In this document: positions 13,424 to 38,430 of the stretch, piece after piece | How the letters are laid out: every line of letters starts with the position of its first letter | Numbering within the stretch: position 1 is the stretch's first letter | DNA from: Takashimella koratensis | Taxonomy: Eukaryota; Basidiomycota; Tremellomycetes; Trichosporonales; Tetragoniomycetaceae | Direction of reading: 5' to 3' | Length of the DNA stretch: 64,000 bases | Assembly (NCBI GenBank): GCA_003116875.1 | Contig: BCKT01000022.1 | Location: 62,488-126,487, forward strand | Notes under the pieces: model-generated | Seen by the model: only the letters and a program-made list of their open reading frames with translations | Told to the model about the DNA's origin: nothing | Database searches by the model: none | Translations under genes and position numbers: made by a program

Positions 13424-13426
13424 GGC

Positions 13427-13542
13427 CTGATGGGGGAGTAGATCGTGAGCAACGGGACTCGTAATGTTGAGGGTTAGGTGGAAGGATGGGAAAGGTATGT
13501 CGGCAAACAAGGTGATGATTGCACTTGCCAAGTGATACTCAC
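13427..13542 (-). other. Candidate 5' UTR intron of the FLO8-like gene
   Basis: On the minus strand a strong donor (GTGAGTATC) begins at 13542 and a CATCAG acceptor ends at 13427, three bases before the chosen ATG. The upstream exon cannot be coding in the matching phase because it contains an in-frame TGA. A spliced leader is therefore the simplest reading. Confidence 0.5.
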
Positions 13543-16500
13543 GCGCACCCAAAGCCCTCAAAATACTACTGGCCCTTCTCAAACTCTGTTCTCACCCGTA
13601 TGACGGACTTAGTCTTGCTCGGCAATGAAGCGGAAGACTTGAGATTGATCAGAGATGGGGTGGCAACGAGGTGGAGACGATGGTGCCGGAAGAGATAAGA
13701 TGAGTGAAGAAAGGGAGATGACAGCGAGGGGGCGAGGAGGGGGGTTTTAGAGCGTCTCGCGTGATTGACGACGGATCGGCCTGGGTCTAGAGGGAGGAAG
13801 GCGAGAGAGGGGTCAAGTGAGAGAGAGGGAGGTATCAAAGGACGTGCGTGTGGGCGACGAGTCAACGTGTGAACATCGATGTAAAGGGGGTCGGAGGTGG
13901 GACGAGGTGAGAGACGAGGTGGACGAATATGCGTCAGCCAAAGTGACGAGTCATGTAGACGGGGTTGGGTCAAGAGCGATTGAAGAATGATGGTGATAAT
14001 GAAGACGGCGATGATGAGAGAAGATGGACGAAGGTGTGATATTCAGGCCGAGGGATGGACACACATGGGCGTATGTCTGGCGAGGGGAGGGGAGGGGAGG
14101 GGGAATGGGAATGGGAAGGGGCGGAGGGCGGAGGCTTGAGTGGGCGCTAATACTCACCGCTAATGGGATTGCACGAGGCGAAGGCCGAGACGCGAGAGCG
14201 GAGGGATCGTCGTGATGGCGACCTGGGGCTGTGAGAAAAAATTGAAATTGACGAGGGACGAGAGGGCAAGAGGTGATTCCCAGCGCGGATGGGCAGGACG
14301 AAGCGAGGAATGAAGAAGGACACCGAGTCATGTCAGCATTGGTCCGGTGCATGCCCAGGTGGGAAGAGGCAGCGAGCAAGAGCAAAGCAATAGGGATGAT
14401 GGATGTGGACGTGATCCCGACCACACATCGGTGGCATGCGGAGAATCGTGACGTACCGAATAGTCAACAAGAGCCCAAGTCACGCGCTCGGAGATGGGGA
14501 GGATAGAGTTTGGTTCAGACGGCGAGTCACTTGCGGACGCGTGGTCGATGACCCAGACTCTCACGCCGATCACGTCTGGTCTGCGGGAATCGGCAAGGAC
14601 AGATGGACAGACAACCTGGGTCCCTTGTCCCTCGTCACCTCGTCTGTCGTGGACCGCGTGTCTCGCCTAGAGGAAGGGGAAACCGGGAACCGGGTTCGCG
14701 ACCGCGCGGTGACGTGGGAGGAGGTATTGATAGTCTCCACGTGCGTCTGGTGATCGTCCCCGAGGTGCCCGGCGGCTGTGTCGATGTATGCACAAGGAAG
14801 CGGGAGTGCCAGGGGTGTCGGAGCGGGTTGGGGGGTCGCTCGGTCGGATGTGGGAAGGTGGTGACGGCAGGCGGAACGAAGCCGAGCGTTCTGTAAGATG
14901 ATGGGTGGGAAAAGAGAGATGGTGCAGAGGTGATCGTCGTTGAAAGCGAGAAAAGTCGTCGTTCCTTCGGGCTTATCACACCACGAATCTCTCGTCGCGA
15001 GTGGATGAATTCTCGTGAGGTGGACGGGTGGTATGCTCTCTGTCTCTCTCGGTCTCGGGCTCCGCTAGGCCGAAGGATGAGAGGTGGATTTGGAAGAGAG
15101 AGAGAGTTGCGGCGTTTGTCGGGAGAGTGCGATGGGCTAGGCCTTCGGAACGGTCCGCGCGCGCTTGAGAGGAGGCAAGTCGAGGGTTGCGCGAAGGGTA
15201 GGTGAAGATGAATAGGATGGATGGAGGATGATGCTTGGTGTGTATGGATGGAGAAGAAAACAAGGTGTAGGTAAGATGTTAATGAGGAAAACGGGGACCT
15301 GGAATGGGGGATCGCTCTCGGTGTCGGTCGCAGGCGCGCCTTTGGGAATTGGCTTGGGATGGGCTTGGTTTGGCTTTGAGCAGAATAAGGGGAGGGTAGA
15401 GAGAGGGCAGAGGGTAGCAGGTAGAGAGGGAGAGGGACCTGAAAACGAGAGAAAAGGCCCGTCGGGAGTGGGGGTAGGGGAGGCTCTGTTTTTCCTGCTT
15501 CGCTCCTTTTCGGCAAGTACTGTATCGTAATAGGCTGATGCTCGATTCGAGGCAGGCAAATCCCGAGCACAGAAAGGAGAGGCGACGATGCAGCGAAGGC
15601 AAAGGTGGTGGTGGTGGGGAAGGGGAGGTGAAGTGAGATGGGAGGGATGCAAGTGGGAAGGGGGATGCTGCGGGTAGGAGAGGATGGCAAGGATGCGTGC
15701 AGTGCGTCCCAGTGGTCGAGTCTAAGGCGAGATTGGCTCTGGCTCGGGTCGATTAGCAAGGGAATTAGGAAGAGGGGCAGACGGATTAGTCCCGATTAGG
15801 TGGTGACGAGGTGGGGATTACAAAGTGAGCCACGGTTAATCCGCAAGGGGGACAAAAAGGGGAAAGGAAAGGACGGGGGCGCCGAGGCATGGGATCCGAG
15901 GGAAAAATCAAACAAAATAACAAAGACCAAAACGAGCCAATCCTCAGGGTCGACTCTCACCGTACTCTCTGTGGCTGCGTTGCTTTGCTTCAACGCTCGA
16001 GTTGGTACACCCGTCTTAGCACCTGCAATGCAGAGATCCATACCACCTCGCTCACATCGACAACGAATCTATGCATCTCGTTAACATTTCAAGTCTTTGC
16101 TTGCTTGTGCACTGCTGTTGGTTTTGCCCCGGGATCACCAATCGACGTTAGGCGAGTTTAAACTTTTCCGAGTGTGAGCAAAACTCAAAAAGCGTGTGTG
16201 GCGTCCCGCGTGCTCCCCTCGTTCCCCCTCGGTCTGTCTACATGCGTCGTTCGCTTCGCTCGCAGAGGTATGCAAGTGGGCAAGTATGCAGGTATTCCCA
16301 ATTACACCTGGGTCGGGAACGTAGATCCTATCCCCATGCTCCATGCTCTTCGCGATGAAGGAATTACAATACTCGCTACCATCCATCATTCGCTGCAAAC
16401 AACGCGGGATGAATGTGTCACCATAGACTCGGGGTAAGCATAGTCGGGAACGTATTCGAGGTTCCGAGTCCCCAACTCGAGGCAATTGAATACCAGTCGG

Positions 16501-22200: not shown

Positions 22201-22581
22201 GGGTTCATGGGGCGGTAAAGGAGTTCGGAAACGCTCTACCAACCCACGTTTCCTCAAAACTACACCAGGTATCGCAGCGACCGACCGTAAAGATGCCGGT
22301 CGGGAGAATGTGATTATCTCGGAGAAGAAGGATAAGAAGGCAGCAGCGTTCTTGGTTAAGGATTTGCCGTATCCGTATACCTCGGTAGCTCAGTACGAGG
22401 CAAGCTTCAAGACTCCCGTCGGGAGTGAATGGAACTCGAGAGCGGGATTCCAGAGGGGGACTGTACCGAGGGTCGTCAAGAAAGTGAGTTGTCGATTGGG
22501 CCAGGAATCAAGAAGGAGGCTGATGCTGACTTTTGTGATTAGCCCGGAGCCATTATCGAACCTGTCCGCAAGCTGTTTTAA
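19242..22581 (+). CDS. UTP14: U3 snoRNA-associated protein UTP14
   Basis: Six exons: 19242-19736, 19849-20284, 20361-21508, 21587-22045, 22127-22483 and 22543-22581, giving 977 residues, within the usual 800-1000. The N-terminal third is highly acidic (long Asp/Glu runs). The core has LPAPLPTVAQERIDRQAAYE, KIKSKTFRKLARKR, ERATLRHGAKTGRWA and KGLMQMAFMKKAHEREMKK. The C-terminus has LPGWGSWGGKGVRKR, KDLPYPYTSVAQYEAS and ends EPVRKLF. These are the conserved blocks of Utp14, which activates the helicase Dhr1 in the 90S pre-ribosome in the nucleolus. The start has a good context (CACCATGG). Two similar Lys-rich KGKPKGKE segments flank the acidic and core regions. The last coding exon is only 39 nt. 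Confidence 0.95.
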
Positions 22582-23425
22582 ACTATACATTTACTTCCGC
22601 CGTACAAGATCTCATGTCCAACATTTGTCTCATTACAATGCGGTCTTCCCCATGCATACTGTATCTCACCCTCATCACCGATTTATCTTGAGTGAAAGAG
22701 CACTGGATGAGACGTCGCCCGTGTCATGCCGCCCTCGAGTTATCACAAATCACTGATTCATACCTGACCACCTTCATTCCACTGGTGAACCCTGGCTTTT
22801 CTTCGTTCGCGATCATATGGGAGAAAGAAGTCGACGCTGTCACAAGTCCTCGAATCGGTTTCTCTCTGCAAAAACTTGTCGACCACTATTTCGAAAGCTA
22901 CTGCCGTAGCTAGACTACAGTATGCTGTCACGAACACCGGTCTACTCGGCCGTAAACTACCCTTACGGTAGACGCCACCAAAGGACAGAGACCTGCCACT
23001 TCAGACAAGAGAAAGGAGTGCACAAAGCGAGGCCATAGACATATATACACAGCCCAGTGATAGTCTTGGTACTCCTTGTCAAATGTTATATTCTGCAACC
23101 AACACTATTTGCAATGTAGTAACAGTTACCGTCTACTAAAGGGACCCACCAGCGATATCCATCACATATGTCTGGTTGGTTTTGAGTCGGGACTCGTTGG
23201 ATTTCTCCGTGGGCAAATCGGCCTTGCTGGTGACAGACGTTGAGACAACTTGTCAGGGCGCTACAACGCCGGAGAGGTACGAGTCACTGTCACCTCATGC
23301 GCATGTCAGATGGCAACGGAAAGTCCTGCGCACAACCGAAGCTTGGCTCAGATTCACACTCATACATACGTTCACAGAACCACATCATACTCGCTCCTCT
23401 GATTCTCGATCAATGTCAAGGACCG
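22582..23425. other. Intergenic: 3' flank of UTP14 and left edge of the accessory island
   Basis: These 844 bp carry no coding block I recognise. Base composition falls to near 50% GC from about here, against clearly higher GC in UTP14. UTP14 and the first island gene converge on this stretch. Confidence 0.4.
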
Positions 23426-24441
23426 CTACGAAGAACCCGATAGGTTTTGGATAGCAGTGATAACTGTGTCAAGCGACTTGATAGAAGAGCTATCATCAGT
23501 CCATACTTCCCACTCGTCCGCGGTTGAGTTAATCTCCAACTCCTTGAAAGATACGCCTCTGTCAGCTGGAACGAGTACTACGATGGTCTCAGATCTGGTC
23601 TTGCCGTATACACGCGTGGGTCCGTCCTGCTGAAGGAAGAGCTTGAGCTCATCCACGAGGCTGAGCAGACCACCAGCAGATGCAAAACGCCTAGCCTGAA
23701 AGAAACTAGGTTCTTCGAGACGAAAAGCGCTCAACTTAGGGCGATCACCTCTCCTATTTCGACGGCTAGACACTTCGATGACAGGGGCTTCAGGCTCCGT
23801 CACGTTGATCTCTCCGTCTATGACCTCTGTTCCGTCTACAACGTTAAGCCACTCGTTCACTTCGAGGTCGTGGAATGCATGAATCATCTGGATTGTCTCG
23901 TCTCTCCCCAAATCGCTGTGGAAATGTGGGATGTCTTTGGTCCACTTGGAGAGGCCTTTGGGGTCTGGCTTTGGGTTCGAGAGTTCTGTCTCCATAAGCT
24001 CATGCTGGAAGTCCGGGTCCGGGCCTGCCATGAAGTGCCCATTGAAGGTGATGACTCGTAAAGTCAACGTTGTAAAGTCAACGTTCCCGCAGCGCCGGTA
24101 ACAGAATCGTCACCGTTCTTGCCGAGAGTGGTCTCGAGGCAATGAAATCCTCCGATTTTCTTGTCGGCGGGCAGTCGGCCAATACTGGATAAAGAGTTGT
24201 GAATCGATTGAGCTGTAAGTCCCCACAGCTCATCGCGTATTGCTTGATCGAGATCATTGGTGTTTCGGCTGATTAGCTGCAGAAACTGCGCCTGAACATC
24301 TGAAGAGCCAAATTCAGGCTGGGTTTGGGGATAGCGCCAAGCTGATGCTACCGTATTGAAAACCGAGCTGTTGTCGAACGTTCCAAGAGAACGCCTGTGG
24401 AACTTCTGCGACTGTAAATCCTCCTTGATCCATGAGACCAT
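23426..24441 (-). pseudogene. Island gene A1: frameshifted member of unknown family A
   Basis: I recognise no known family. Two open frames on the minus strand, 24441 to about 24064 and about 24067 to 23426, line up end to end with the single frame of A2. Shared landmarks, in order, are WIKEDL near the start, TVASAWRYP, a Gln/Leu helix (AQFLQLI), GGFHCLE, TLTL then RVITFNGHF, a helix around MIHAFHDLE, VIEVSSRRNRR and FLQQDG. The frame breaks at an exact 14-bp tandem duplication at 24058-24085, just after TLTL, and a stop follows at once. Without the duplication the frame would be 334 codons. Where A2 and A3 have introns, A1 reads through without a stop. ATG 24441 matches the start of A2. Unless the duplication is an assembly error or differs between alleles, only a protein of about 126 residues can be made. 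No signal peptide or membrane helix is seen. Confidence 0.6.
24058..24085. repeat. Exact 14-bp tandem duplication inside island gene A1
   Basis: The unit gtaaagtcaacgtt occurs at 24058-24071 and again at 24072-24085 with no mismatch. Because 14 is not a multiple of three, it shifts the A1 frame, and the protein similarity to A2 and A3 changes frame exactly here. Confidence 0.95.
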
Positions 24442-25498
24442 TGTGATGATATTGTGTATATCGTTGTAAATCGGTGGGACAAACTGTTGCAATGATGAGT
24501 GATGAGAGCGAGAGGGGTCGAGAGAGACACAAGACGTCTTTTGTAGTAGAGGCAACCATGTGGTGGTCGCAACGGGTAAGACTAGTCGCTGCCATGTCCT
24601 TTCAGGTATTCCGGCTGAAACAGAAGAGTGCTTCGAAGGCATCCAACAGAGACAACATCCTTTGTTGAACATTCGTCCCCACTCACGCTGCCGGGCGAGC
24701 GAACAACTATCGCCGGCTTGCCCCGATATGTTCAAAGCGCCTCTTGAAATGTCCTTTCTCTTACTGCATGTCAACTGCAAACAATCTTACTCCGATCCCG
24801 GCGGCCGCCTTTATCCTTTGACTGTGTGGATGACAGCTCTGGCGTTCGAAATGTCTCTCCATGTCGACTTCTCGTCTGAAACTAGGCAAAGGAGAGCTGA
24901 CCAGCGCCACGGGAGCGCGGTCCCGGTCATACACGACTATTTGGTCGCTGCCTTCCTGTCTCCGCATGACTCGAAGGGGATGATTAGAGCAGTCTTTCCA
25001 GTCTGCTGACTGAGTAGACGGCCGAGACGTCTTCAGTACATCTCTCACGAGCGAAGTGGAACATGGAAATGGACACGACTGGGCGAGCTTGAGTGGGAGA
25101 TGGAGCTGTGCAACCCGCACAACTTTGCACAAAGTTGATTTATGACTCAAGAGTCCCGGACAAGGTGCAGGTCAGGGATCATCCCCGCTTTTATTATTGA
25201 CGATAAGAACAAGAGAAAGGCCAAGGACAAACCGTCGAATCACCCCGGACGTACATAACTACTAGACGGTCTGGAGTTGAGGCCGAGCCCGAAAGGGCCA
25301 TCACGACGGTCTGAACCGCTGCTCGGTCGCCGAGACGCCCCAAAGACAATATGTAAGGATTATCACCGTGAGTATGCTTCCCCATCAATATGCAGACTAT
25401 CTAGCAAGCGGGACTAGAAGGAGCTAAGGGTATTTCTGTCACAATACCTGGTACTGAATAACTCAAACAGGAGTGAGTAATCGAGACTCTGATCATTC
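24442..25498. other. Intergenic between A1 and A2
   Basis: This 1.06-kb stretch lies between the A1 start and the A2 stop. The A1 frame stays open upstream to 24780, but similarity to A2 begins at 24441, so the extension is probably not coding. I see no further copy of the family and no clear TATA element next to A1. Confidence 0.4.
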
Positions 25499-26345
25499 CT
25501 AGTCGATGCGGCCGACCTCAGTCTCAATGTCCCATTGGTCATCAGTCTTCAACAGGACATGCTGCGTGAATTCTTCGGTTGTCTGATCGTACGTCATTAT
25601 CGATTCAATCCTGGTCCTTCCATGGATACGGTCATCAGAATCCTGTTGAAAGAATCGCTCTCGTTCTTCAGCCATGCTCGGTAGAGGGGAGCTGCTGGCT
25701 GGAGGACGTCGTGTAAGGAAGGGGGTTCCGTCTTTCAGGATGACGCTCACCGCCTGGCCGACGAGAGCGACGGGAGGAAACTTCGATCACGACCCCCTCG
25801 TTCTGGGCGTCCTCATTCATATCGTGAAAGGCAGTGATCAACTCACGCACGCTGTCTCGTGACCTGTCGTTGTTGAAGTCCGGGAGGTCTTCGGGCCAGC
25901 ACGTCGATTTATTGAGACGGGGTTGAGAAAGCTCTTGTTTCATTGATCGCACGATATCGTCAACACCTTCACTGACCCTGTGACCGGTGAAGGTTGTGAC
26001 GCATAGCGTTTTGCCGCCAGCGCTTTGTGTTCCCGTGGCGATGGCAATCTCCATACAATGCAGGCCTCCAGTTAAAATCCGTTTCGTATATATCCCAGCT
26101 TTATAAAGACCTTCCGATATAACATTGCCTGCAAGAGCACTTAACACTTTACGCTCCTCGTCATGTAGGTTGTCCGTGTTCACCAACTGCAACACCTGCG
26201 CTTTGACGTTGAAGGAGTCTCCGTTAGCAGATGTCTCAGGGTAGCGCCAAGCAGAAGCAACGGTGGAGAGCATTTGGCTTCCATCGCTTTGATTGGGATC
26301 CTTCATCAGCTCGGTTGGTAGATCTTCCTTGATCCAAGTGGACAT
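25499..26345 (-). CDS. Island gene A2: intact member of unknown family A
   Basis: Two exons, 26345-25751 and 25698-25499, give 264 residues. The 52-nt intron starts GTGAGC, ends CTCCAG and restores the frame that aligns with the C-terminus of A1. Visible landmarks are MSTWIKEDLPTE, LSTVASAWRYPET, VKAQVLQLV, GGLHCMEIA, TLCVTTFTGH, a helix with RELITAFHDM, VVIEVSSRRSRR, ERFFQQDSDDR and TRIESIM. The protein looks soluble and mixed alpha/beta, with no signal peptide, membrane helix or catalytic motif I know. Similarity to A1 runs over the whole length, so this is a real gene family. Function is unknown. A TATAAAAG box lies 126 bp upstream of the ATG. Confidence 0.65.
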
Positions 26346-26470
26346 GGCAACTGAATGCTTCAACTTTGGTGAGATGTCTTGAGTCTTTTGCGCGTAAGTA
26401 GATGATATCAGCTCAATAAGACTGAGTAGCGTTGAAGGAAAAGACGAGCTTTTGCACAATCCATACCTGC

Positions 26471-26478
26471 CTTTTATA
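26471..26478 (-). promoter_or_regulatory. TATA box of island gene A2
   Basis: TATAAAAG on the minus strand, 126 bp upstream of the A2 ATG. It is a perfect match to the TATA consensus in an otherwise unremarkable leader. Confidence 0.55.
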
Positions 26479-27465
26479 CGAAGGGGGCGAGGTAGCCATT
26501 AGACTGCCTAGCTAGATTACCAGGCTTTTTAGCCTCGGATCTTTGTCAACTGTCTGTCGCCGAGTTTCCACGCAATACTGACCATCGGCTGACGAGCCCG
26601 ACTATATTCCTTTGGATTTACTAAGCGCTAGCCCCGTTCGGCTCCAAATTCGTCCCAGCTTGAAACCGATTGACGCCGGACGATGCCGAGGAGAGAGCCC
26701 CCGAGGACAAAGAGAAAATGGCCTTCGAGTATCATCGAGCAGAACACCTCCCCCCCACAGCCAGGATTTGAAGGCGACAGTAAACGCCCTCGGTATCTAC
26801 TTCAACGGACAAGCTGTCAACGATAAAGGAAGTTGCATTTGGTCCCACTTTGATCTGTAGCGTATAGAGACAGCTGCGTCCGACCGGGAGCTAACGCCAG
26901 CAGCAAGCATGCTCGGTATTTATTTTGTGGACGGGTTATCCCTTGTCTCTCTCCTCACAGTGAGTATCGAGCAGTCAACCCAACCAACAAAACCCGCAAG
27001 GCGGTCTACACACTTGCCAACACTGAGATAGGAGGTAGTTCGGAGGCAACGGGGGTACTGTCGTACAGAGCTCTTTGGCAAATCTCAAGCGGACTGGGGA
27101 TCTCTCCCTGACGCCACAGAGTTTGCTGCTGGTTGGGCTGTCGCTTATCCCCAGCTCAGCTGGATCCACACGCTTTTCGTGGGCTGCACGTATAACGCGA
27201 ATTCCCACTGACGAATACATCCTGGTCTCACATACATCTTCGTTCGCCTCCAATGCATTCAAACAGCCAGTGGTGCTGAGTAACGATGGAACTACGAAAG
27301 AAACTGCTTGATTTGGACACTCTTCTACACGGCACCTTTGGGCACACCGTCAACTCTCATCATCGGGGGCCACCGGCAGTACTCCGGAAAGGTTGGGGTG
27401 GGCAGATGGATCGGCATCCGAATCGGCATCCGAATCGGTATCTTTGCTGACCGATGGGAATCTCT
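26479..27465. other. Intergenic between A2 and A3
   Basis: No recognisable gene in this stretch of about 1 kb. A short array of a 12-bp unit lies at 27411-27442, just downstream of the A3 stop. Open frames here are short and unbiased. Confidence 0.4.
27411..27442. repeat. 12-bp tandem repeat downstream of A3
   Basis: The unit tcggcatccgaa occurs twice in full, followed by a partial copy with one change (tcggtatc). Confidence 0.85.
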
Positions 27466-28413
27466 CTACCAGTGAGCCGTCTTCATGATTGACTCCTTCG
27501 GCGCACCCCAAAAGATCCGCCGCATGATCGGCTGGACGGGGGATTGGGCGTCGCCGATGAAACTCGAAGTGAGCTGAGTCGAACTTTCACCGGGGACTTG
27601 AACCATCGTTCGTTGTAAGCGCTCGCCGACAGTACGTTGAGAGCGGGGCCTGGCAGTTTGCACGATGACTTGTTGGTCTTCGATTTCTCTTCGCTGCCGA
27701 GCGATTTGACCGGACGTGCGGTGCCGATCAAAGGACCTGCTCGTCGTCCCCATTGCAAAAGAAAAGAGGTCGAGCACTTGATCTGCGTCCACTTGCGTCT
27801 CGGCCTCTTGGGATTTGGGGAGGTCTTTGGGCCAATGGGTCGGGACTTTGGGACCGAAGAGAGAAAGCTCGTCCGACATCTGCCTGAAGAGAATGTAGGG
27901 CTCCGGCGCCTTCAAGTGCCCGTTGAAGATGAGGAGACGCAGAGTTTGAGGTTGCAAAGATGTGGGGGGGTCAGAGGTGATCATGGGAAGTTCCGTACCG
28001 ATGATCGTGACCGTCGGAATCTCCAAACAGTGTACACCGCCGATGAAGTCGCTGTCTTGAAGCCTGTTACAGCTGCGCAGATAGTCCATCATCCCCGAGA
28101 CCGCCAGTCTGATTGAGTCGAAACGAGCTCCAGGACTGTTTCGTCCGGCGTTGTCATCAGAGAGTTGCAGGACCTGTCCGGTGTCAGGTATGGCATCTGA
28201 AGACGCCTGAGGAGGTCCGAGCGGTCCCGAAGTACCTGGGATGCCGAGAGGGGACCGAGCGGGGTGGCGTAGGCCGAGGCCACGGAGAACAATAAAGACC
28301 ACTAGTAGGGGCGATGCAGCGCTGCGGCGCACGAGCCCGCGAGCGGCTGCGGCCGTGGAGAACGACGGGGATGCATGAACGACGCGCAAGCGGTCGAGGC
28401 CGATCTGGTGCAT
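27466..28413 (-). CDS. Island gene A3: divergent member of unknown family A, 5' end uncertain
   Basis: From about 28173 down to 27466 the frame encodes family-A landmarks: VLQLSDDN, GGVHCLEI, QTLRLLIFNGHL, WPKDLP and, near the end, RIFWGAPKESIM. Upstream, the matching FSVASAYATPLG segment is in another frame. A 62-nt intron (28235-28174, with CTGAC close to its acceptor) joins the two exactly (SASQ to VLQL), as the family alignment requires. Before that, an in-frame TAG at 28302-28304 separates the conserved part from ATG 28376. Either the first exon is spliced at the AG of that TAG, or the copy has a nonsense mutation. The start is therefore unresolved. ATG 28413 abuts a TATA-like element and is unlikely to be used. 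Function is unknown. The first exon is GC-rich and differs from A1 and A2. Confidence 0.45.
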   Translation of the reverse strand: MHQIGLDRLRVVHASPSFSTAAAARGLVRRSAASPLLVVFIVLRGLGLRHPARSPLGIPGTSGPLGPPQASSDAIPDTGQVLQLSDDNAGRNSPGARFDSIRLAVSGMMDYLRSCNRLQDSDFIGGVHCLEIPTVTIIGTELPMITSDPPTSLQPQTLRLLIFNGHLKAPEPYILFRQMSDELSLFGPKVPTHWPKDLPKSQEAETQVDADQVLDLFSFAMGTTSRSFDRHRTSGQIARQRREIEDQQVIVQTARPRSQRTVGERLQRTMVQVPGESSTQLTSSFIGDAQSPVQPIMRRIFWGAPKESIMKTAHW

Positions 28414-28420
28414 TTAAATA
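28413..28420 (-). promoter_or_regulatory. TATA-like element of island gene A3
   Basis: TATTTAAA on the minus strand. It lies at the 5' end of the A3 locus, which makes the overlapping ATG 28413 a poor start candidate and points to a start further downstream. Confidence 0.4.
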
Positions 28421-29859
28421 GCAGTCTGTAGCGTCGAGAGATGAATCCCCAACCCGTTGAAACCTAACATCCGGCGACGTCGAGTGCACTTTTTCCCGGG
28501 TCGTGCACTGGGTAACGTTGTCGTATCTTGACGATGAACGGCGGCGGGGAACCCTGGTCTGGGGAAAGGTCGCTGGTATTTCAGCTTGTCATCCTCGGTG
28601 GAAAGCGTTGAGAGCTCGTCTACCGCAAGCGAAAGTCGTCCAAGACGAGAGAAGAGGGTGCGAAAGGTAAGAAGGATGTGCTGGCAGATCGTGGAAAAAG
28701 CTTGGGGGTCGAGTCGAGGTTGGTGAGGTGAATAGTGCGAGCTGAGGGGTATAGTGGAAGAGACGAAAGCTAAAGTATTTCAGAATCAATTTCCGTCTCG
28801 TCAAATAACACACAGCTGCTGACTTTCCGTGAGCCTCAGTCCGCCTCTTCCGACTTCGCATCCTCCTCTGTCCTTTCATCGGGGAGTCAAGTGGGGCTGG
28901 CGCCGTGCGCATGCCTGCTCTTCCGTCACCTGGCGGAAGACAAGCAGCTCGTGCTTAACCCTCTGCCGACCACCCTCTCTTTTGTGCATTCTTTGACACT
29001 ACTTTGAAACTCGGAGAAAGACCGAGCTGTTTGTGGAGGTGCTATGTTTGAAAGGCTCAGTGTACTCGAAGGCATAGTGCTGCCTGAGGTCTGGTGCAAG
29101 GCAAATAGACGGCCAAACGGCGAAGTATCAACTCAGCATGAACTCAGCTCGGTCGAGACGAATGATCAGCGGTGAAAGGAGAGACAAAGTTAACGTTTGC
29201 TGACAGTGGCTCGGCCGAAAAAGTTCAAGGCCTCAAGTGTGGCGACTCTAAGAGTTGACAGGGATGGTGTCATGAACTCTTATGTGCCACACGAGGTGTC
29301 TCTCAGGCCTTCTTGATGACCCCATGTCGGCCGAAAAGGTGAGGACCTTGGATCAAGCGGCTCTGTGCGGTCCCAGGAGGGATGTCAGGAGCGAACCTCA
29401 CTGTCAAGTTGGTTGCTCGTCAACAAGGGCCCAAGGTGTTGAACTTTCGTTCACACAATGCTCCCTCCTCTCTGCTCCTGATGCCAGCAAGTGAGTTAGA
29501 GGTTACGGATGCACTTGTCGGAGCTTCAGGGGTACTATGAGAGCGGCTCAAGCCGACGCCCGGATACGCAGCAAGAGTGATACGGAAATGACCAGGCTAC
29601 AGTGCACAAGCAAGTGCTCGCTATCGATGCTCACCTATATCGAGCTGACTGGGGTCGGAGGTGATTGTGGAGTATCAGCGTCAGATTCATTAGGACTGGC
29701 TCTTCTGCGATAAAAACGTCCTAGTCACAAGAGTATTACCTATACCATAGCGTATAACACTCATTCGACCGATCAATCAACCACTAGATATCATTATACA
29801 AAAGCAGCCTCGCTGGCGTCCCCTGGAACCATTAACGTGTCAGCGAACTCATTCTTCTG
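28421..29859. other. Intergenic between family A and family B genes
   Basis: These 1.4 kb hold no gene I recognise and no further copy of either family that I could detect. The region marks the change from A-type to B-type paralogues. Confidence 0.4.
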
Positions 29860-30785
29860 TCAGAACGGCTCAGGTCTGGAGTCTTGCTGGTCAGCCACTT
29901 CCATGTTGGGACGGTAGACCGACGTCCACTCCATCGGCTCCATGGCTGAAGGAACTCCTGATACCATGTCTTGGAAGTACGCATCGAACTCGGATCCGAC
30001 CTGGGAGACTCCTTGGATCATGGTGACGATGTCATTCAATGTCCGTTGGAAAAGAGATGAACATTCTGAAGGTTCCCGCGCAGTAATTGGTAAGCCATTT
30101 GCAAAGGACTTGATAAGCTTGGCGTAAAAGGACTTTGCTGTCTGTCCGGTTGAAATCGGGTTAAAATCCTCGAGCTCGCCTCCAGGGGTCTGCCCAAGGG
30201 TGTCTGGCATCCCACGGTATCTGTGAACCCCTTCAAGATTCTGATCTTCGTTGGGCTTTTCCTCAAGCGCGTTCCCGTACGCTACGATGGAGGTATCAAG
30301 AGAGCCGCAGCAATCCTCACGATCGCAGCCCGCAGATGAATGTCCATAGCAGTCCGGCAACATGGTCGTCAGATGGAGGCCTCGAGAAGGGTGACCATCC
30401 CGAGCCATCGAGATCGCGCCAGAATCCACTTCATGGAAGAGGTAAATCTATCCGAAAGGATATCATGGACGCTGCAGTGCCAAGGATGTTCTTCCACCTC
30501 AGCTGCACTGGGTTCTCTGGGGACAGCTCGAACCATGAGATGATAGATATCATCGAGTTCGTCATCAGACATGGTGAGGTCGGCTCCGGTCCACAGAGAA
30601 AGGACTTGAAGGTAGCCATCGTTGCTCTGACGAAGGATAAACGGGAGGCGGGAGCGAAGGGCTTGAGAGGCCCTCGTCTGGGCGGGGGTGAAGTAAGTCC
30701 AGGTGCGACCGTCGACACTCGGAGTTGCAATCGGTGGGCGAATTCGAGAGAGAACGTCAAGCGGTGAAGGTATGCAGGGCAACAT
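29860..30785 (-). pseudogene. Island gene B1: frameshifted member of unknown family B
   Basis: I recognise no known family. Two overlapping minus-strand frames, 30785 to about 30440 and about 30445 to 29860, align consecutively with B2. Landmarks are DGRTWTYF, LRQSNDGYLQVLSL, MSDDELDDIYHL, HCSVHDILSDR, then in the second frame FHEVDSGAISMARDG, GLHLTTMLPDCYGHS, a Cys-rich stretch (CDREDCCGS), QTPGGEL and EFDAYFQDMVS. The frames differ by two bases out of three, consistent with one base lost just after SDR. No GT-AG intron of reasonable length fits. With the base restored the frame would be 309 codons. The ATG at 30785 aligns with the B2 start. It may be a recent pseudogene, an assembly error or a case of programmed frameshifting. 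A TATA box and a poly-G tract lie directly upstream. Confidence 0.55.
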
Positions 30786-30867
30786 GACTCAGAAGTGAGG
30801 TTCCGACTGAGTAGGGAAAAGTGGATGTCGATAGTGAGAAGCGTGTATTCCGAAAGGTCAGTGGGCC

Positions 30868-30875
30868 ATTTTATA
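30868..30875 (-). promoter_or_regulatory. TATA box of island gene B1
   Basis: TATAAAAT on the minus strand, 83 bp upstream of the B1 ATG and 13 bp from the edge of the G-rich tract. Confidence 0.55.
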
Positions 30876-30887
30876 TTCACAAAACTT

Positions 30888-30898
30888 GGGGGGGAGGG

Positions 30899-30936
<38 letters not shown>
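30888..30936. repeat. Poly-G tract with 35 consecutive G, upstream of B1
   Basis: The plus strand reads G almost without break from 30888, with single A bases at 30895 and 30901, then 35 G in a row at 30902-30936. On the B1 coding strand it is poly-C just upstream of the TATA box. Homopolymers this long are unstable in vivo and hard to sequence, so the exact length is unreliable. Confidence 0.95.
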
Positions 30937-30938
<2 letters not shown>

Positions 30939-31472
30939 GACAGAGCAGGTGCACCGACAACACTCCAAAAGCTGATGTGTCACCTTTGACACGCTCTCAC
31001 CTATAATACTCTTAACCTCCTTTCATGATCATCACCATTGTGTTACCTTTCACGAGCATCGGCAACGTCGGCTTATCGCTTATCGACGGAGGAGCTCATG
31101 AACGGAGCAAAAACGTTTCAGACGTCGACGCGGTTTAGGCCGGTAGTCGTGGGTGCTTTACCGCGCTGAGCTGGTTATGCGGCTATGCACGGTACTGCTC
31201 AGTGCTCTTCCGGCTCAGCTTGCCCCTCTACTGTATCCCATCTCGTCTTCCAAGACTGACACACACTGTCCCTCCTGTCAGCAAACTTCGGCAGGGATGT
31301 ACTCTTCTCAGCCACGAAAAGATATTTGGGAGTATCAGCAGCAGAGTTTCCTGGATAGAAGCGTCGTAGATGTAAAGGGTTGTGGGTTGCAAGAGGCTAC
31401 GAGGGCGCGACAGAGAAAGAATGATGCATGTAAGAACTCAGCCTGCCGTTCTGGGTCAAAGGCAGAAGCTAA
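30937..31472. other. Intergenic between B1 and B2
   Basis: No coding block recognised in this stretch of about 540 bp. It should hold the distal B1 promoter and the B2 3' UTR. Confidence 0.4.
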
Positions 31473-32498
31473 TTAGTCCGAATGATGTTCCTCCGAATGA
31501 TACCCGTTGGTGAGTGGCGGCTCCTCCTCCACCATGGTGGTCTCGCCCGTGGGCAGTGTTGGTCGCACTGGTGCGGATGAGGAACCGGCCGCCTGGTCGT
31601 TCTGTCGGGTCGCTCCTGGCCCGTTGCCGCGATGAACCTCGGCCCACTCCTCTCGGCTGTCGGTCAGAGAAGGTCTCGACACGAGATCGTCGTAGAAGGT
31701 GCGGAATGTAGCCCCCTCGTCAGAGATTCCACGTACCAGCGCCGCAGCTCGCTCCAGCAGCGTTGGACCGGGTGACGAAGACAGGGATCCGGTGCCTTGA
31801 CCGGGACTGCGATGCAAGCCGCGTGCGAATGCGTCGACGAGCCCGCCAAGATGAGTGAGGAGGACATTGGTCGGTTGGATAGAGGGATCCATGTCCACGG
31901 CCCTCAACTCGCCGCCGGGAGTTTCTTGAAGGGTCCCGGCCATTCCTCGGCGCTCGCGAGCGAACTGGAGATGTGCTGCGTTGGTTGCGGCTGTTGGGTT
32001 CTGGCAGGGACCAGCGAGGACCTCTGTGCCGAAGCAATTCTGGGTTCGGACGCCGCAGGGGTCCTGAACAGAATGTCCGTAGCAGTGGGGCAGCATCGTG
32101 GTAAGATGAACGCCGCCATGCTGGCTCGTGCCATCGTCTGTCGAAGTCATGACGGAACCGAATTCGTGGAAAATCCAGGATCGGTCCAATGAATTGTGGT
32201 GGAGGCTGCAATGCGTTGGCGGAAGAGATTGGTAGGGGGTGTTTGGAACGGAGTCGATGAGGAGACGATCGATTTCTCTCAGGTCATTGTCGGAGATGGT
32301 GCGGTTGTGAAGTGTGAGGAGCTGGAGGTGACCGTCACCGCTGTAACGGAAGATCTGGCGCGAGCGAGACTCTGCGGGCTGGTTGACGCCGTGATATAGC
32401 CAGGAGCGACCATCGGGACTCCGAGACGAATTCAAGGCGAGAGCTTGAAGCCGAACCGAGTCGAAAGCTTGAGACGCTGCAGTAGACAGTCCCTGCAT
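31473..32498 (-). CDS. Island gene B2: intact member of unknown family B
   Basis: A single-exon frame of 341 residues from ATG 32498; the frame stays open further upstream to 32672. The start is chosen because MQGLSTAASQ aligns with the B1 start and lies 89 bp from a TATA-like element. Landmarks shared with B1 are DGRSWLYHG, RYSGDGHLQLLTL, a helix with DNDLREIDRLLI, HCSLHHNSLDRSWIFHEF, GGVHLTTMLPHCYGHS, a Cys pattern of C-x9-C-x6-C, RRGMAGTLQETPGGEL and FRTFYDDLVSRPSL. The C-terminal 50 residues are low complexity and acidic. There is no signal peptide and no clear membrane helix. The spaced Cys/His residues around HCYGHS could bind metal, but that is a guess. Function is unknown. Confidence 0.6.
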   Translation of the reverse strand: MQGLSTAASQAFDSVRLQALALNSSRSPDGRSWLYHGVNQPAESRSRQIFRYSGDGHLQLLTLHNRTISDNDLREIDRLLIDSVPNTPYQSLPPTHCSLHHNSLDRSWIFHEFGSVMTSTDDGTSQHGGVHLTTMLPHCYGHSVQDPCGVRTQNCFGTEVLAGPCQNPTAATNAAHLQFARERRGMAGTLQETPGGELRAVDMDPSIQPTNVLLTHLGGLVDAFARGLHRSPGQGTGSLSSSPGPTLLERAAALVRGISDEGATFRTFYDDLVSRPSLTDSREEWAEVHRGNGPGATRQNDQAAGSSSAPVRPTLPTGETTMVEEEPPLTNGYHSEEHHSD

Positions 32499-32586
32499 CG
32501 TGCCGAAACGAAAAGTCGAAGATCGATTGTCGAGTAGAATTCGATAGGGAAGGGTAAAAGGCGAAACAAAAGGGTCAGCATGCACC

Positions 32587-32594
32587 ATTAAATA
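32587..32594 (-). promoter_or_regulatory. TATA-like element of island gene B2
   Basis: TATTTAAT on the minus strand, 89 bp upstream of the chosen B2 ATG. The spacing is almost the same as in B1. Confidence 0.45.
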
Positions 32595-33365
32595 CCCCAA
32601 GTCCTCATGCAACTTCACCACACACACGCACCTCTCCGACGAGTCATTTGTCGCCTGACCTTCAGCCCTCACGCCTCTACACGCAGGCTTACGACTTGGC
32701 CGGTCGATATCCTTTCAGCAGCCTAGAAAGCGTCTCACTCGTCGAGTAGACCCGAGGTGAACGAAGTGAGGGCTCAGGTCTGGTGCCCTATAGCGGTCCG
32801 GCTGTATGGGTCTGCGAGACTGTCCTGAGCAAGCTATGACTCTTGAGCTGCTCGAGTTGTAAAGGAGGTAGCCGAGTACAATCCCCCTCGCCTTCTTGCC
32901 GTCCTCCACGCTGACTCATCCCCTCTCTCTTTCCGTACATCCCTCAACCCCCTCATCCCCAGCCCAAAGTCGACCGAGTTAATCCCCACGAAGGCTTCGA
33001 ACAAAAGCCGAACGAGGCGAACCACGCAAGGCGGCTACACCATTTCCCGACCCCCCCTCGCCTTCTCGCACTCTTCACGGCCGCCCGCCATCTGGGTCAC
33101 GTTCGGCCGAGAACGTCGACTGCAGGCCGGCGACAGACCCTCGGCGACATTTCCGAGTCGACACGGCCGATGCGCCGACCAACGCGCAACTGTTAACGGG
33201 CGGTCGTCAATGAGCGAGGGAGATCCACCCCGTTAGTACGATGAGAACAAGGAAAAGGTCGGCCGAGCTTGTAATATTAGTAAAGTAGATAAGAACCGAC
33301 ACTATGGGGTCGATGCATAGCAAGGATTTGCAAGTCCCAAGGTCGTATGAGACATCGACAACCGA
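32595..33365. other. Intergenic: B2 upstream region and MIP1 3' flank
   Basis: I see no coding block in these 770 bp. This is the right-hand border of the accessory island; the next gene is a conserved housekeeping gene with higher GC. Confidence 0.4.
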
Positions 33366-36300
33366 TCACCCTCGGCCGGTGTTCACTGGAACTGCGCGAA
33401 CCCGACGACTCCCACTGGTCCGACTGGGCCTCAACTTAGCCGGCGTATTCCGCTCCCACGACAAGTTACCCAGATCCACCTCGTCCCATGCGATCCCAGC
33501 TCCAATATCAACGTGAGTTTCGTACCCCTCGTCGTTCAATTCCTCACTCCGAGGCCCAACAGGCTTCCCACCTACACCGGCTGTCTTCCGAGCCGACCTG
33601 GCCGCTGACCTCGATGCTGGAGTCCGAGTCCGAACGGCGATATCCGACCAACCGTTGTCTTTCCCCATACCCTGAGATTTGAGCCAGTCACGCGCGGCGG
33701 CGCGGTTCGACTCTGCCTGAACTTGTAGAAACCTCCTGTGTTCGTTTGACCGAATATCGGAGAAGATCCGGACTGGCGGAGGAAGCGTCGACTGCGGTTG
33801 TTCGAGATCGGGCCCGGTGGGTGGTCCGAGGTCCCCTCCGCCAGTCTTCTCCAGGAGAGAAAAAATGTCCACGCTCTCACCCGGTGCGATAGCGTTCGGG
33901 TGGCTTGGCGTGACACAAGACATGTCTGTTTCTTTTCGAAGTACGTGGTCGATATCGACCGCGGAGAAGAAGAGGACCCCCTGTGGCACATCGTCCAGGC
34001 CTAAGTTGTAGCAGAAGAGCGCGCGAGTCCAGGCGTTGGCGATCTGAAGCGCGAGGGCGGCGCGGTACTTGTCTTCCTCACGGGCGAGGTACCGAACCTC
34101 GTCGTGTACCGAGAGGAGGTATCGAGCATTGATGGAGTATCGGGTAGTCAGATACTCCATGGAGGCGATGAGGAGGTGGAGGTAGTCAACACCCGAGGAC
34201 TGGACGACCCAATTGATTCGTGATGGCAGGTAAGACTGCACGTCGTCTAAGTAGTCTCGGCGCAACGCCCGGGTAACTCCACAGCCCAGCGCAGGGGTTG
34301 TAGGTCGATCGAGGAGCGCGATGGATTCGAGCGTGTTGAAGAGATAACTCTCTGACCCACCATGCCAGAGTTGGTCTCGGCCCGGCCGGGGTTCTTTACC
34401 CGCCCGACGCGTTTTCGTACCCTTGGTCGCTTCGTACAGGCTCCGCGCGAGAGCCTCGGCAGCAGGCTTGGTCAGGCTGCTGTCCCCCTGCATAAGCAGC
34501 TGGACAGCGTGCGGCTGGCCCGCACCGTAGATCCGCGAGTAGTTGAACACCTTCGCAGCATCGCGTGAGATCTTCAAGATACTCGCCGTCTTCGAATGCA
34601 GGTCGGTCCCCGCCGACTTTGTCCCTTCGAGGGTCATCCACCCGATCGCAGTCGCGCCGTGTAAGCCGAACTGAGAGTCACCCATGACGCTAGAGATCCA
34701 AAGCTCCTCTGAATCGACATCGGCACCAACGATCGCGTACCCCTCGGGCGCACGGACCATCGCCTTAAGCTCGGACCCGACTCGGTTCTTCTTCGCGTTG
34801 GACGCAGTCAACCACGTCGATTCGACCGCACGGCGCGTCACCGTCCCCATCGTGATCACTTTCGGGAGGATCATACCATGCTCCTCATCCCGCCAGACAA
34901 CCATCTGGTCCATGATCCGCTCGCGGGCGCCGATCCAATAACTACACTGCGCGTTCATGTTTGTCGCTGCAGACGCAGCCTTGGCCGCAGCGCTATCCCC
35001 ATCCCCACTAACTGCCGACGCGAGCTCACCAGATTCCAGAGCATCGAGAAAACTCTTCGTCAACGGGTTCCCGACATTGCTCTCCTCACCGTCCTTGTGC
35101 GGGAGCTTGAAGTAGAGATGCTGGGAATCCGCCGCGAATCGCTCGTCGCCTTTCATCGGAGTAAATTTGACAGCCTTCTTGGGATCGACGGCGGCGTTGG
35201 TGTTGGGAGCGACGGATTCTGTCGATACAACCTCGATGTCAACCTCGCTCAATTCAGTCGGGGTAGCCTTGGCTTGATTTTTCGGCACACGGTACATCCA
35301 CTTGTGCTGACGACTGAGGAAGAGCGGGAAACCGTTCCATTGCATTCTCAGGAGAAGCGGGGCGACCGACTTGCGGACCGTCAGATCGAGCTCTCCAAAC
35401 GGCACTTTCTTGTTGCTCGCAGGCGCCGAGAGGTCCCAATACCATTTGGGCCACGAGGCGGACCCGCTTAACCGCGATCGAGACGAACGAGGCGATGCGA
35501 TGACCGAGTCCCCATTGGACGATACTGCCGGTGACGATTCCCTCCAGTCCAGCTGCATCCCCCAGTCATCGTCCGGCCCAATCTCCTTCATTTTCGCCGC
35601 ACACGCCGCCAAGTCGTCCGTCACACTCGACAAATCCGCCTGCAAGACTTTCTCCAGAACGTCAGGGTAAGGACTAGTAATCAGTCCGTCCTTGACGTCC
35701 TTCTTCACCGCGTGACCGCCACCGACGAGTTTCGCGCGCCGGTTCTCGCCCGGCGGGGGGATCCGGAAGAACGCCGAGGTTTCTGCGGCCGATTCGAGGT
35801 GGACATCCTTAGGTCCTAGCTCAACGGGCAGCCCGTGGGCCTGGATTAGGTCGGAGATGGCGGATTGAGGGACCTTGAAGCACCAGAAGTGCTCGGCGAG
35901 TTGAACGACTGGGTAGCCCTTGTAGGACATGCGAAGGATGAGGGGTATGATATCGCGTTGATATCGGATGTCGAGAAGGGATTGAGAGTTGGCCGCGATG
36001 GGAGCGTACCACCGTGGCAGTGAGGTAAGTGGGGTAGTCGTGGCAGGGGTGGTAGGCGTTTGCTCCGTCAGAGTTAGAGCTATTGCTTCGTTGGCCGTAG
36101 CACTCGATAATTTTGGTGTGTCTTCTTGCCCAGAGACGGATTCCTTCGTCAAAATTTCATCGTATTCCGGACTATCCTCCCATCTCGCCGGTTTGAGCGA
36201 CCAATCGAGCTGACCAGACCAAGGATCGCCCTCTTTCGGCCCCTCTTTTCTCAACTTCTCTGCCAACAGCCTCAACGCCTTCTTCACTCCCTCTCCCATC

Positions 36301-38183
36301 TCCTGATATTTCCCCTCCGCATCTTGGAGATACTTTTCCCAGCTCTTATCAACGGGCAAGAACGCGTTACCCATAGCTAACACGCCTGCAAACGTCGCTG
36401 GATGAGGACATGAAGCGAGGAAGAGCGGAAGGACGACTTTGAACACATCGTGTGTCACTCGCACATCGGTCGCGCAGTAACTCAGGAGGTCATGGAGTTC
36501 GGGTCGAAGCATCGAAGCATGGCTGATCGAGTCGTCACTGAATCGGTCACGCGTAGACTTGTCCATCTCGATCCCGCAGTGGAGGCTAGCGACTTCGGCG
36601 AGAGAGTTGATCGAAGTCGTATCTTCCCACCGTTTCTGCGCCGCATCAGAGGCCGAAACGAGCTGTCCGTTGACCCAAGCATCTTCACTGATCTCGGCAA
36701 GGCTCTGAGCAAGCATCTCGCCTCCTTCCTGTTCCGCCTGCTCACGGAGGACCCGCATCGCGTCCTCTGCTTGAGAAGTATTCACTTGCTTGCGCTTGCG
36801 ATGAAGCATCCACGCCGAGCGTTGGACCGAGGTGATACCCCTTGTGGCCACGTGGAGGGACAACGTATCGAGCCACCGTGTTGGCGTTCGGTCAAGCGAG
36901 TATTCCTCGAGCACTCGAGCACGGTCGTATCCGACGTTATGGCCGATCGCGATCGTCGGTCGCTTCCCATCGAACAGCGGGATCAGGTCGTGTGGGAGGT
37001 GTCCGGGCGCTCGGGTATCCCACCGAGCCCGAGCCTCGGGCGGTGAGTCTGAGGTTGGCGGATCGTCGAAGATGGATGGTGAGAGCCACGAGTACCATGC
37101 CTTTGGACTCGCAGCTGTCGCCATCACAGGGTACGGCGAGATCTTGTGCAGGGTCTCGACATCAAACGAGACGATATCCTCCAACACGTGGTCGACAGGG
37201 GTGACGCTGCCGTCCGCATCGTAGCGATACCAACCAGGCGCCGAGGTTTCCCATTGTTCCGGGAGAGGAGGGAGGTCGATATCCGCGAGCTGCTTCGCCA
37301 TGGACAGGTAGGGCTCAGCGGTCGCGTTACCGAGCGCTTGGAAATGCGCCCGGATGTCTTGGCCTTGTAGCGGCGGCATGTCGAATGAAATCTCAGGGAG
37401 AACGGCAGCACTCTCGGGCGAGAGACCGTGATGCTTGAGGTGACGGCGCGAGAGGTCGAGCAGCTCAGGAGGAGGGGAGGGAAGAGGCGGACCGGGGAAG
37501 AGTTGGGAATGGAGAGAAGGGGAGAGGAGTTGTACGCCGACGGCGTTGCGCCTGGGCTGAAGGGTGGGTTGGATCGTGGGATCGAGGGAGGGCGGAGTCG
37601 AGGCATGCTCTTTCTCTTTGCCCTTGGCGGTGGGCGGGGTACGATCGGCAAGGCGCGAGGGGCCAGAAACGGGTTCTGGAGGTAGGGTTTCAGGCCATTG
37701 CGAGCTGAGCACGGCAGGCTGCGATGAGCCCGACGACAGTGGCGGGTATGCCGAGGGGTCCATCAACGACGGCAGCCTCGGGTTCCTCTTGGTCGTCACT
37801 GCAGTATACATGTCAGTGTCATGTTCCGTCCTCTGCGCCAAAGACTGCTCACCCGGCTGCGCTTGAGCCGATTTCTCCATCTCAACAGCGAGGAGGTAAT
37901 CGTTGTACTCTGCGCGCCTGGGATGCATTGATACCCTATGTCCACGATCGGCTCCGCTACCACCGCACAAGCCAGAGGATACATTATCATTGAGGATGGT
38001 GCCATTTTCATTGCCGCTGGTGTGATCGTTGTCGTTATCGGCTTCGTCGTCAACAGGCTGGACGGCAGCAGACAAGGGTCGTCGTGTGACCGATACCGAG
38101 GCGCAAGGACGGTGCCGCCTGACCCGCACAGAGGGGCGGACCAACACCGCACGCAGGCGAGGGAGGTCGCTGAGGCCACGCAT
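33366..38183 (-). CDS. MIP1: Mitochondrial DNA polymerase gamma catalytic subunit
   Basis: Two exons, 38183-37853 and 37798-33366, give 1587 residues. The 54-nt intron (GTGAGC to CTGCAG, with CTGAC near the acceptor) is a multiple of three, so the unspliced frame is also open. The N-terminus is Arg-rich and acid-poor (MRGLSDLPRLRAVLVRPSVR), as expected for a mitochondrial presequence. Conserved blocks are VGVQLLSPSLHSQLFPG; exonuclease motifs I (VSFDVET), II (IGHNVGYDR) and III (YCATDVRVTHDVF); and polymerase motifs A (IVGADVDSEELWI), B (KVFNYSRIYGAG) and C (LLSVHDEVRYL). This family A enzyme replicates mtDNA with proofreading. It is longer than the roughly 1250-residue yeast protein because of an N-terminal extension, low-complexity spacer inserts and a C-terminal tail. 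ATG 38183 is preferred over the in-frame ATG 38288, which would precede the presequence. Confidence 0.95.
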   Translation of the reverse strand: MRGLSDLPRLRAVLVRPSVRVRRHRPCASVSVTRRPLSAAVQPVDDEADNDNDHTSGNENGTILNDNVSSGLCGGSGADRGHRVSMHPRRAEYNDYLLAVEMEKSAQAQPGEQSLAQRTEHDTDMYTAVTTKRNPRLPSLMDPSAYPPLSSGSSQPAVLSSQWPETLPPEPVSGPSRLADRTPPTAKGKEKEHASTPPSLDPTIQPTLQPRRNAVGVQLLSPSLHSQLFPGPPLPSPPPELLDLSRRHLKHHGLSPESAAVLPEISFDMPPLQGQDIRAHFQALGNATAEPYLSMAKQLADIDLPPLPEQWETSAPGWYRYDADGSVTPVDHVLEDIVSFDVETLHKISPYPVMATAASPKAWYSWLSPSIFDDPPTSDSPPEARARWDTRAPGHLPHDLIPLFDGKRPTIAIGHNVGYDRARVLEEYSLDRTPTRWLDTLSLHVATRGITSVQRSAWMLHRKRKQVNTSQAEDAMRVLREQAEQEGGEMLAQSLAEISEDAWVNGQLVSASDAAQKRWEDTTSINSLAEVASLHCGIEMDKSTRDRFSDDSISHASMLRPELHDLLSYCATDVRVTHDVFKVVLPLFLASCPHPATFAGVLAMGNAFLPVDKSWEKYLQDAEGKYQEMGEGVKKALRLLAEKLRKEGPKEGDPWSGQLDWSLKPARWEDSPEYDEILTKESVSGQEDTPKLSSATANEAIALTLTEQTPTTPATTTPLTSLPRWYAPIAANSQSLLDIRYQRDIIPLILRMSYKGYPVVQLAEHFWCFKVPQSAISDLIQAHGLPVELGPKDVHLESAAETSAFFRIPPPGENRRAKLVGGGHAVKKDVKDGLITSPYPDVLEKVLQADLSSVTDDLAACAAKMKEIGPDDDWGMQLDWRESSPAVSSNGDSVIASPRSSRSRLSGSASWPKWYWDLSAPASNKKVPFGELDLTVRKSVAPLLLRMQWNGFPLFLSRQHKWMYRVPKNQAKATPTELSEVDIEVVSTESVAPNTNAAVDPKKAVKFTPMKGDERFAADSQHLYFKLPHKDGEESNVGNPLTKSFLDALESGELASAVSGDGDSAAAKAASAATNMNAQCSYWIGARERIMDQMVVWRDEEHGMILPKVITMGTVTRRAVESTWLTASNAKKNRVGSELKAMVRAPEGYAIVGADVDSEELWISSVMGDSQFGLHGATAIGWMTLEGTKSAGTDLHSKTASILKISRDAAKVFNYSRIYGAGQPHAVQLLMQGDSSLTKPAAEALARSLYEATKGTKTRRAGKEPRPGRDQLWHGGSESYLFNTLESIALLDRPTTPALGCGVTRALRRDYLDDVQSYLPSRINWVVQSSGVDYLHLLIASMEYLTTRYSINARYLLSVHDEVRYLAREEDKYRAALALQIANAWTRALFCYNLGLDDVPQGVLFFSAVDIDHVLRKETDMSCVTPSHPNAIAPGESVDIFSLLEKTGGGDLGPPTGPDLEQPQSTLPPPVRIFSDIRSNEHRRFLQVQAESNRAAARDWLKSQGMGKDNGWSDIAVRTRTPASRSAARSARKTAGVGGKPVGPRSEELNDEGYETHVDIGAGIAWDEVDLGNLSWERNTPAKLRPSRTSGSRRVRAVPVNTGRG

Positions 38184-38430
38184 GGAGGAGAAGGGAGGGA
38201 GTTGGTCGAGCTGGATGTGGTTAGATGAGGTCCATGGGTGGTGCTGAGGTGAGATCAAGGTGAGATGTCCAGAGGTGAGATTGGCCACCCGTCTATGCTG
38301 AAAACATCAAATGCACATCGGAGCGGAAGCAAATCTGGCTGATTTTGGCCTTTGGTCGGCTAGGGTCACGTCACGGTCAGTCCGCCTCCTGCCTCCTGCC
38401 TCTTCTCCATCCTCCACATCAAGCACAAGC
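38184..38430. promoter_or_regulatory. Bidirectional promoter between MIP1 and the Lunapark gene
   Basis: Only 247 bp separate two start codons pointing away from each other, so the promoters must be shared or overlapping. No TATA box is evident. Confidence 0.6.

Follow-up and report, generated by a model that had tools for sequence, protein, structure and literature searches.

In Neurospora, lineage-specific genes are reported to cluster with HET-domain genes (PMC10684091), and lineage-specific genes have also been explained by homology-detection failure (PMC7660931). Here we describe five loci in a 64,000-base stretch of DNA (the window; contig positions 62488-126487). Its sequence points to a tremellomycete-like fungus as the source, with no near relative among the MIP1 matches listed. 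The locus resembles the Neurospora clusters in that its genes lie together, have a restricted distribution and show recognisable domains rarely or not at all; it differs in that no HET domain is seen in the copies and in that two paralogous sets lie in one array. It resembles the detection-failure genes in that the proteins have no detected relatives beyond the lineage, and differs from them in that the cluster paralogues mostly detect each other, so that relatives at the same distance would not have been missed. We propose, at a probability of about 45%, that fast-evolving orphan proteins are encoded here by an old tandem array native to a fungus of this kind and formed by duplication, divergence and loss, with the two sets perhaps belonging to one family as two branches. 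None of the analyses points to a function, and for now the locus simply adds to the unexplained orphan arrays. If the family is real and has no relatives elsewhere, the locus would be a compact natural test of orphan family origin, with old duplications, intact beside disrupted copies and housekeeping flanks for synteny.

A same-strand array of two gene sets

Five loci, A1–A3 and B1–B2, lie at 23426-32498, all on the minus strand and flanked by UTP14 and MIP1, exactly as the initial annotation had placed them. The features are as follows, in window coordinates.

Ending near 22.6 kb, plus strand: Utp14 gene (PF04615)
23426..24109, minus strand: A1, 3′ open piece of 227 amino acids (A1c), C-terminal domain included, similar to A2 and A3
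24058..24085, minus strand: 14-base tandem duplication in A1, two exact copies, by which the frame is shifted
24106..24441, minus strand: A1, 5′ open piece of 112 amino acids (A1n), with 37% identity to A2 across 108 codons (no shuffle of 200 as high)
25505..25714, minus strand: C-terminal domain of A2, in a different frame from the rest of A2 and homologous to that of A1
25668..26345, minus strand: A2, open frame of 225 amino acids, with TATAAA lying 133 bases before its ATG
27466..28413, minus strand: A3, open frame of 315 amino acids, like A1 and A2 from about 28179 down, 5′ end uncertain
29860..30441, minus strand: B1, 3′ open piece of 193 amino acids (B1c) in another frame, similar to B2
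30369..30785, minus strand: B1, 5′ open piece of 138 amino acids (B1n), with TATAAA 90 bases upstream
30902..30936, unstranded: G/C homopolymer of 35 bases (G on the plus strand) upstream of B1, the sole homopolymer of at least 14 bases in the window
31473..32498, minus strand: B2, intact single frame of 341 amino acids, with TATTTA 96 bases upstream
33369-38186, minus strand: MIP1, mitochondrial DNA polymerase (PF18136 and PF00476)

Protein-level similarity within the sets

Pairwise alignments of the seven overlapping within-set pairs were each compared with 200 shuffles under stricter and looser gap costs. Under the stricter costs no shuffle reached the real score in any of the seven; under the looser ones, A1n–A3c was reached by 5 of 200 and A1c–A3c by 1 of 200. 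The z scores were 26.8 (A2–A1n), 17.1 (A2–A1c), 14.4 (A2–A3c), 7.6 (A1c–A3c) and 5.8 (A1n–A3c) in set A, and 20.8 (B2–B1n) and 31.8 (B2–B1c) in set B. Amino-acid identity was 22–37% throughout, and in all seven comparisons conservation was highest at codon position 2 and lowest at position 3, the signature of protein coding: identities at the three positions were 0.46/0.63/0.34 for A1n–A2, those at positions 2 and 3 were 0.58 versus 0.38 for B1c–B2, and the pattern was weak for A3c–A1c (0.44 versus 0.38). Similarity beyond that of shuffled sequences, together with this codon pattern, bears out the earlier view of the copies as real duplicated proteins; its description of them as fast-evolving, in the sense of fast protein change, is also supported. 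Third-position identity was 0.34–0.39 against 0.26–0.28 expected from base composition (computed for five pairs), a level so low that the duplications look old.

Codon usage points the same way. The eight pieces scored 0.61–0.71, above all 15 intergenic readings (0.55–0.59) but not above the leave-one-out range of housekeeping genes (0.61–0.79; five pieces), and the true frame scored best in six of the eight, with A2 and B1n tied to within 0.005. The usage appears native, without strong bias, and on these sequence features the A and B loci are, or recently were, protein genes.

Neighbouring same-strand copies are homologous within each set, as in a tandem array, A3 being the weakest case. The last three quarters of its frame resemble A1 and A2, and single-sequence genome searches link it to them only at E 0.14–0.64, making it a far weaker member. 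The motifs first listed for the sets are present, except that the TVASAWRYP block occurs in A1 and A2 only and is absent from the A3 open frame. A second-frame N terminus for A3 was sought and rejected, as upstream frames matched the A1/A2 N terminus insignificantly (at best, 44 of 500 shuffles scored as high).

Intact and disrupted copies

Some copies had been called broken, and two, A1 and B1, do look so. The frame of A1 appears to be broken by its 14-base duplication; a splice that skips the duplication may offer an alternative, which qualifies the call for this copy. In B1 the two frames overlap and leave no room for an intron, and B1 looks like a frameshifted copy. That frameshift could itself be an assembly error, and the 35-base homopolymer nearby is a possible assembly trouble spot.

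The C-terminal domain of A2 matches that of A1 (E 4.8 × 10−4 in the own-genome search; score 77, with none of 500 shuffles as high) and is either joined to the open frame by an intron, with a GTGAGC donor nearby, or cut off by a frameshift lesion. A scan demanding strict donor and branch signals returned no intron in A1, A2, A3 or B1, two on the antisense control and one within the uninterrupted frame of B2; the GTGAGC donor near A2 does not carry the required branch signal and was likewise not picked up. No TATA-like box was found for A1, and that of A3 sits just 7 bases off.

Reach of the homology searches

The inability to name a family, on which the initial annotation had remarked, persisted: no Pfam family reached its gathering score in any of seven pieces, none of five pieces had a PADLOC family, no NCBIfam family reached its cut-off, and a search of some 5.8 billion proteins yielded nothing for A2 or B2 at E 10. 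A match to a common known family, named at the outset as a refuting outcome, did not emerge. Sub-threshold Pfam matches to R2K_3, DIL and DUF2826 (one each in three pieces) and weak NCBIfam matches in two of five pieces were set aside as chance, as were weak PDB sequence matches (none for A2 alone). Among the papers listed by our literature search none concerned this locus; we make no claim that it is missing from the literature.

Within the genome (25.1 Mb, 24 contigs), searches with five open pieces out of seven (A1c, A2, A3c, B1c and B2) returned, at E < 0.1, solely the copies at this locus; two matches of A3 elsewhere (E 1.04 and 4.07) were treated as chance. A profile search found no further copies in the window, other matches having E values of 1.5 or worse.

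How far these negatives reach depends on the method, as the protein search considers only sequences of similar length that have five-residue words in common with the query, and its queries were A2 and B2. The B2 and A2 searches had 5577 and 285 word-sharing candidates, respectively. As a control, residues 900-1400 of MIP1 returned 3550 relatives at E 0.001 among 7987 candidates scored; among the 120 matches listed, the best had 72% identity, including Saitozyma sp., followed by, among others, Vanrija and Kwoniella at about 70%. Exact five-residue words are shared by A1n–A2 (seven), A1c–A2 (four) and B1c–B2 (six), so relatives that close would have become candidates; A2–A3 share one and B1n–B2 none, so relatives as distant as these would be missed.

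These figures frame the main rival to lineage specificity, namely that homology-detection failure may lie behind the orphan status. The genes would then belong to an ordinary fungal family that evolves fast and occurs in many relatives, where its orthologues have become too diverged to detect; the cluster would reflect local tandem expansion only and would not be lineage-specific. We regard this as a serious contender, somewhat less probable than our own reading. Paralogues within one genome have already fallen to the identities given above, with low third-position identity, so orthologues in genera with about 70% MIP1 identity could escape detection; Weisman et al. are cited in support, and relatives at the B1n–B2 or A3–A2 distance would go unseen in a word-based search. 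Against it, relatives as near as A1n is to A2 (50 bits) or B1c to B2 (66 bits) should have shown, and none did. The proposal that the locus is lineage-specific stands to the extent that A2 and B2 have no detected relatives, and goes no further than the sensitivity of these searches allows.

A proposed native array and its predicted products

Our preferred reading, the old native array, draws on the paralogy, the codon pattern, the single locus, the old duplications, the native codon usage and the TATA-like boxes 90–133 bases upstream of A2, B1 and B2; the poor structure models and the failed tests of kinship between A and B count against it. Such an array would evolve by birth and death, through the duplication, divergence and loss of copies, and its genes would be dispensable accessory genes, expressed weakly or conditionally.

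The products would probably be small, soluble and intracellular. Maximum 19-residue hydropathy means are 0.89 for B2 and 1.01 for A2, with no strongly hydrophobic stretch, and over the first 35 residues the maximum 11-residue means are 0.59–1.23 for B2, A2, A1n and B1n, which, as far as hydropathy can tell, speaks against a signal peptide. It is from the absence of a strongly hydrophobic N terminus in B2 and A2 that we infer soluble intracellular proteins. The exception among the loci is A3, the frame of which starts hydrophobically (11-residue mean of 2.79) at an uncertain 5′ end; if that reading is right, it speaks against an intracellular location.

Structure prediction of A2 and B2, proposed earlier as a check, was run and gave poor models (mean pLDDT of 40.9 and 45.3), and a fold search with them returned no match that reached E 0.001. 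The Foldseek matches (best E 0.047 for A2 and 0.15 for B2) were set aside on account of the poor models, and with no fold match either, both fold and site are guesses. With that proviso, the proteins may have an alpha/beta core bearing constant residues, including the HC and GH dipeptides, followed by a variable tail; the His/Cys residues would most likely allow the core to bind a metal ion or a partner, and the partner would change quickly. A shared function of such a His/Cys site, if proven, would make this a new protein family. The HCxE element recalls the H/CxE motifs of deaminases; that reading was rejected, set A being without the following second cysteine pair and set B without the glutamate. 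A zinc site in set B, built from C-x2-H twice and then two more cysteines, is only an idea.

Relationship between the two sets

Pairwise, profile–profile and shuffled-profile tests all failed to give significant similarity between A and B. The doublets W-Y, LQ, HC and GH are conserved in both sets, in the same order and at similar spacing; each of the five loci has both HC and GH, and W-Y is absent from the A3 open frame. Picked after it had been seen, this pattern was met by none of 100,000 shuffles. A fairer test than one on a pattern chosen post hoc takes all conserved doublets and redeals the letters among conserved places; there a chain of five was reached in 86 of 5000 trials, and the reversed sequence gave two. 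In the low-confidence models, strands and a helix come in similar order around the W-Y, LQ, HC and GH residues in A and B. That the sets are two branches of one family is perhaps the case, and the evidence from sequence and models is suggestive only.

Conflict, recognition and capture

That the copies are incompatibility, spore killer or similar conflict genes at a self/non-self locus or in a selfish element, and turn over by recurrent selection, seems to us unlikely. Tandem copies, low identity, two disrupted frames and the lack of homologues would all fit, as would the clustering with HET-domain genes reported in Neurospora (PMC10684091). Recognisable conflict domains (HET, NLR or toxin) did not appear in the Pfam search of seven pieces or the PADLOC search of five, and the four neighbours that could be identified by their domains (Utp14, MIP1, a Sec24-like protein and a Trm8-like methyltransferase) are all housekeeping genes. 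The conflict, recognition or host-interaction role put forward in the initial annotation is possible but unsupported: no result favours it, the N termini of B2 and A2 included. Slightly less probable still is the broader proposal that A and B are two branches of one undescribed alpha/beta superfamily in which the HC...GH site is constant. In a group of basidiomycete yeasts, this superfamily would have expanded at one locus and would act there in recognition or conflict, as a module with rapid turnover.

The fall in GC relative to the flanks, also noted at the outset, exists but is modest: the island has 0.538 against 0.567 and 0.572, and values as low or lower occur in 25 of 220 overlapping windows of island length. 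By part, GC is 0.51 in A1–A2, to which the dip is limited, 0.588 in A3 and 0.563 in the B part. Capture from a virus or by horizontal transfer, followed by decay, is the least credible account, for which the missing relatives, the disrupted copies and the lower GC of A1–A2 can be cited, against near-native codon usage, protein constraint kept through old duplications and the failure to confirm any A2 or B2 relative in viral contigs by a search that reaches close relatives only.

In the surrounding sequence, no Rfam family was found in 22500-33400, no tRNA was found across the window in a bacterial-code search, and telomeric repeats are absent from the outermost 10 kb at either end of the contig (151,826 bases). 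A run of 3938 Ns at contig positions 58550-62487, perhaps a scaffold gap, directly abuts the start of the window. MIP1 (33366-38306; 1606 amino acids from 38186 down) and the Sec24-like gene (55855-58755; 966 amino acids) are each a single unbroken frame, unlike Utp14, which comprises several frames with short intron-like gaps between them. At 10418-13591 of the window, the minus strand carries long glutamine-rich, low-complexity frames that, judged by the frames alone, apparently encode a coactivator-like protein.
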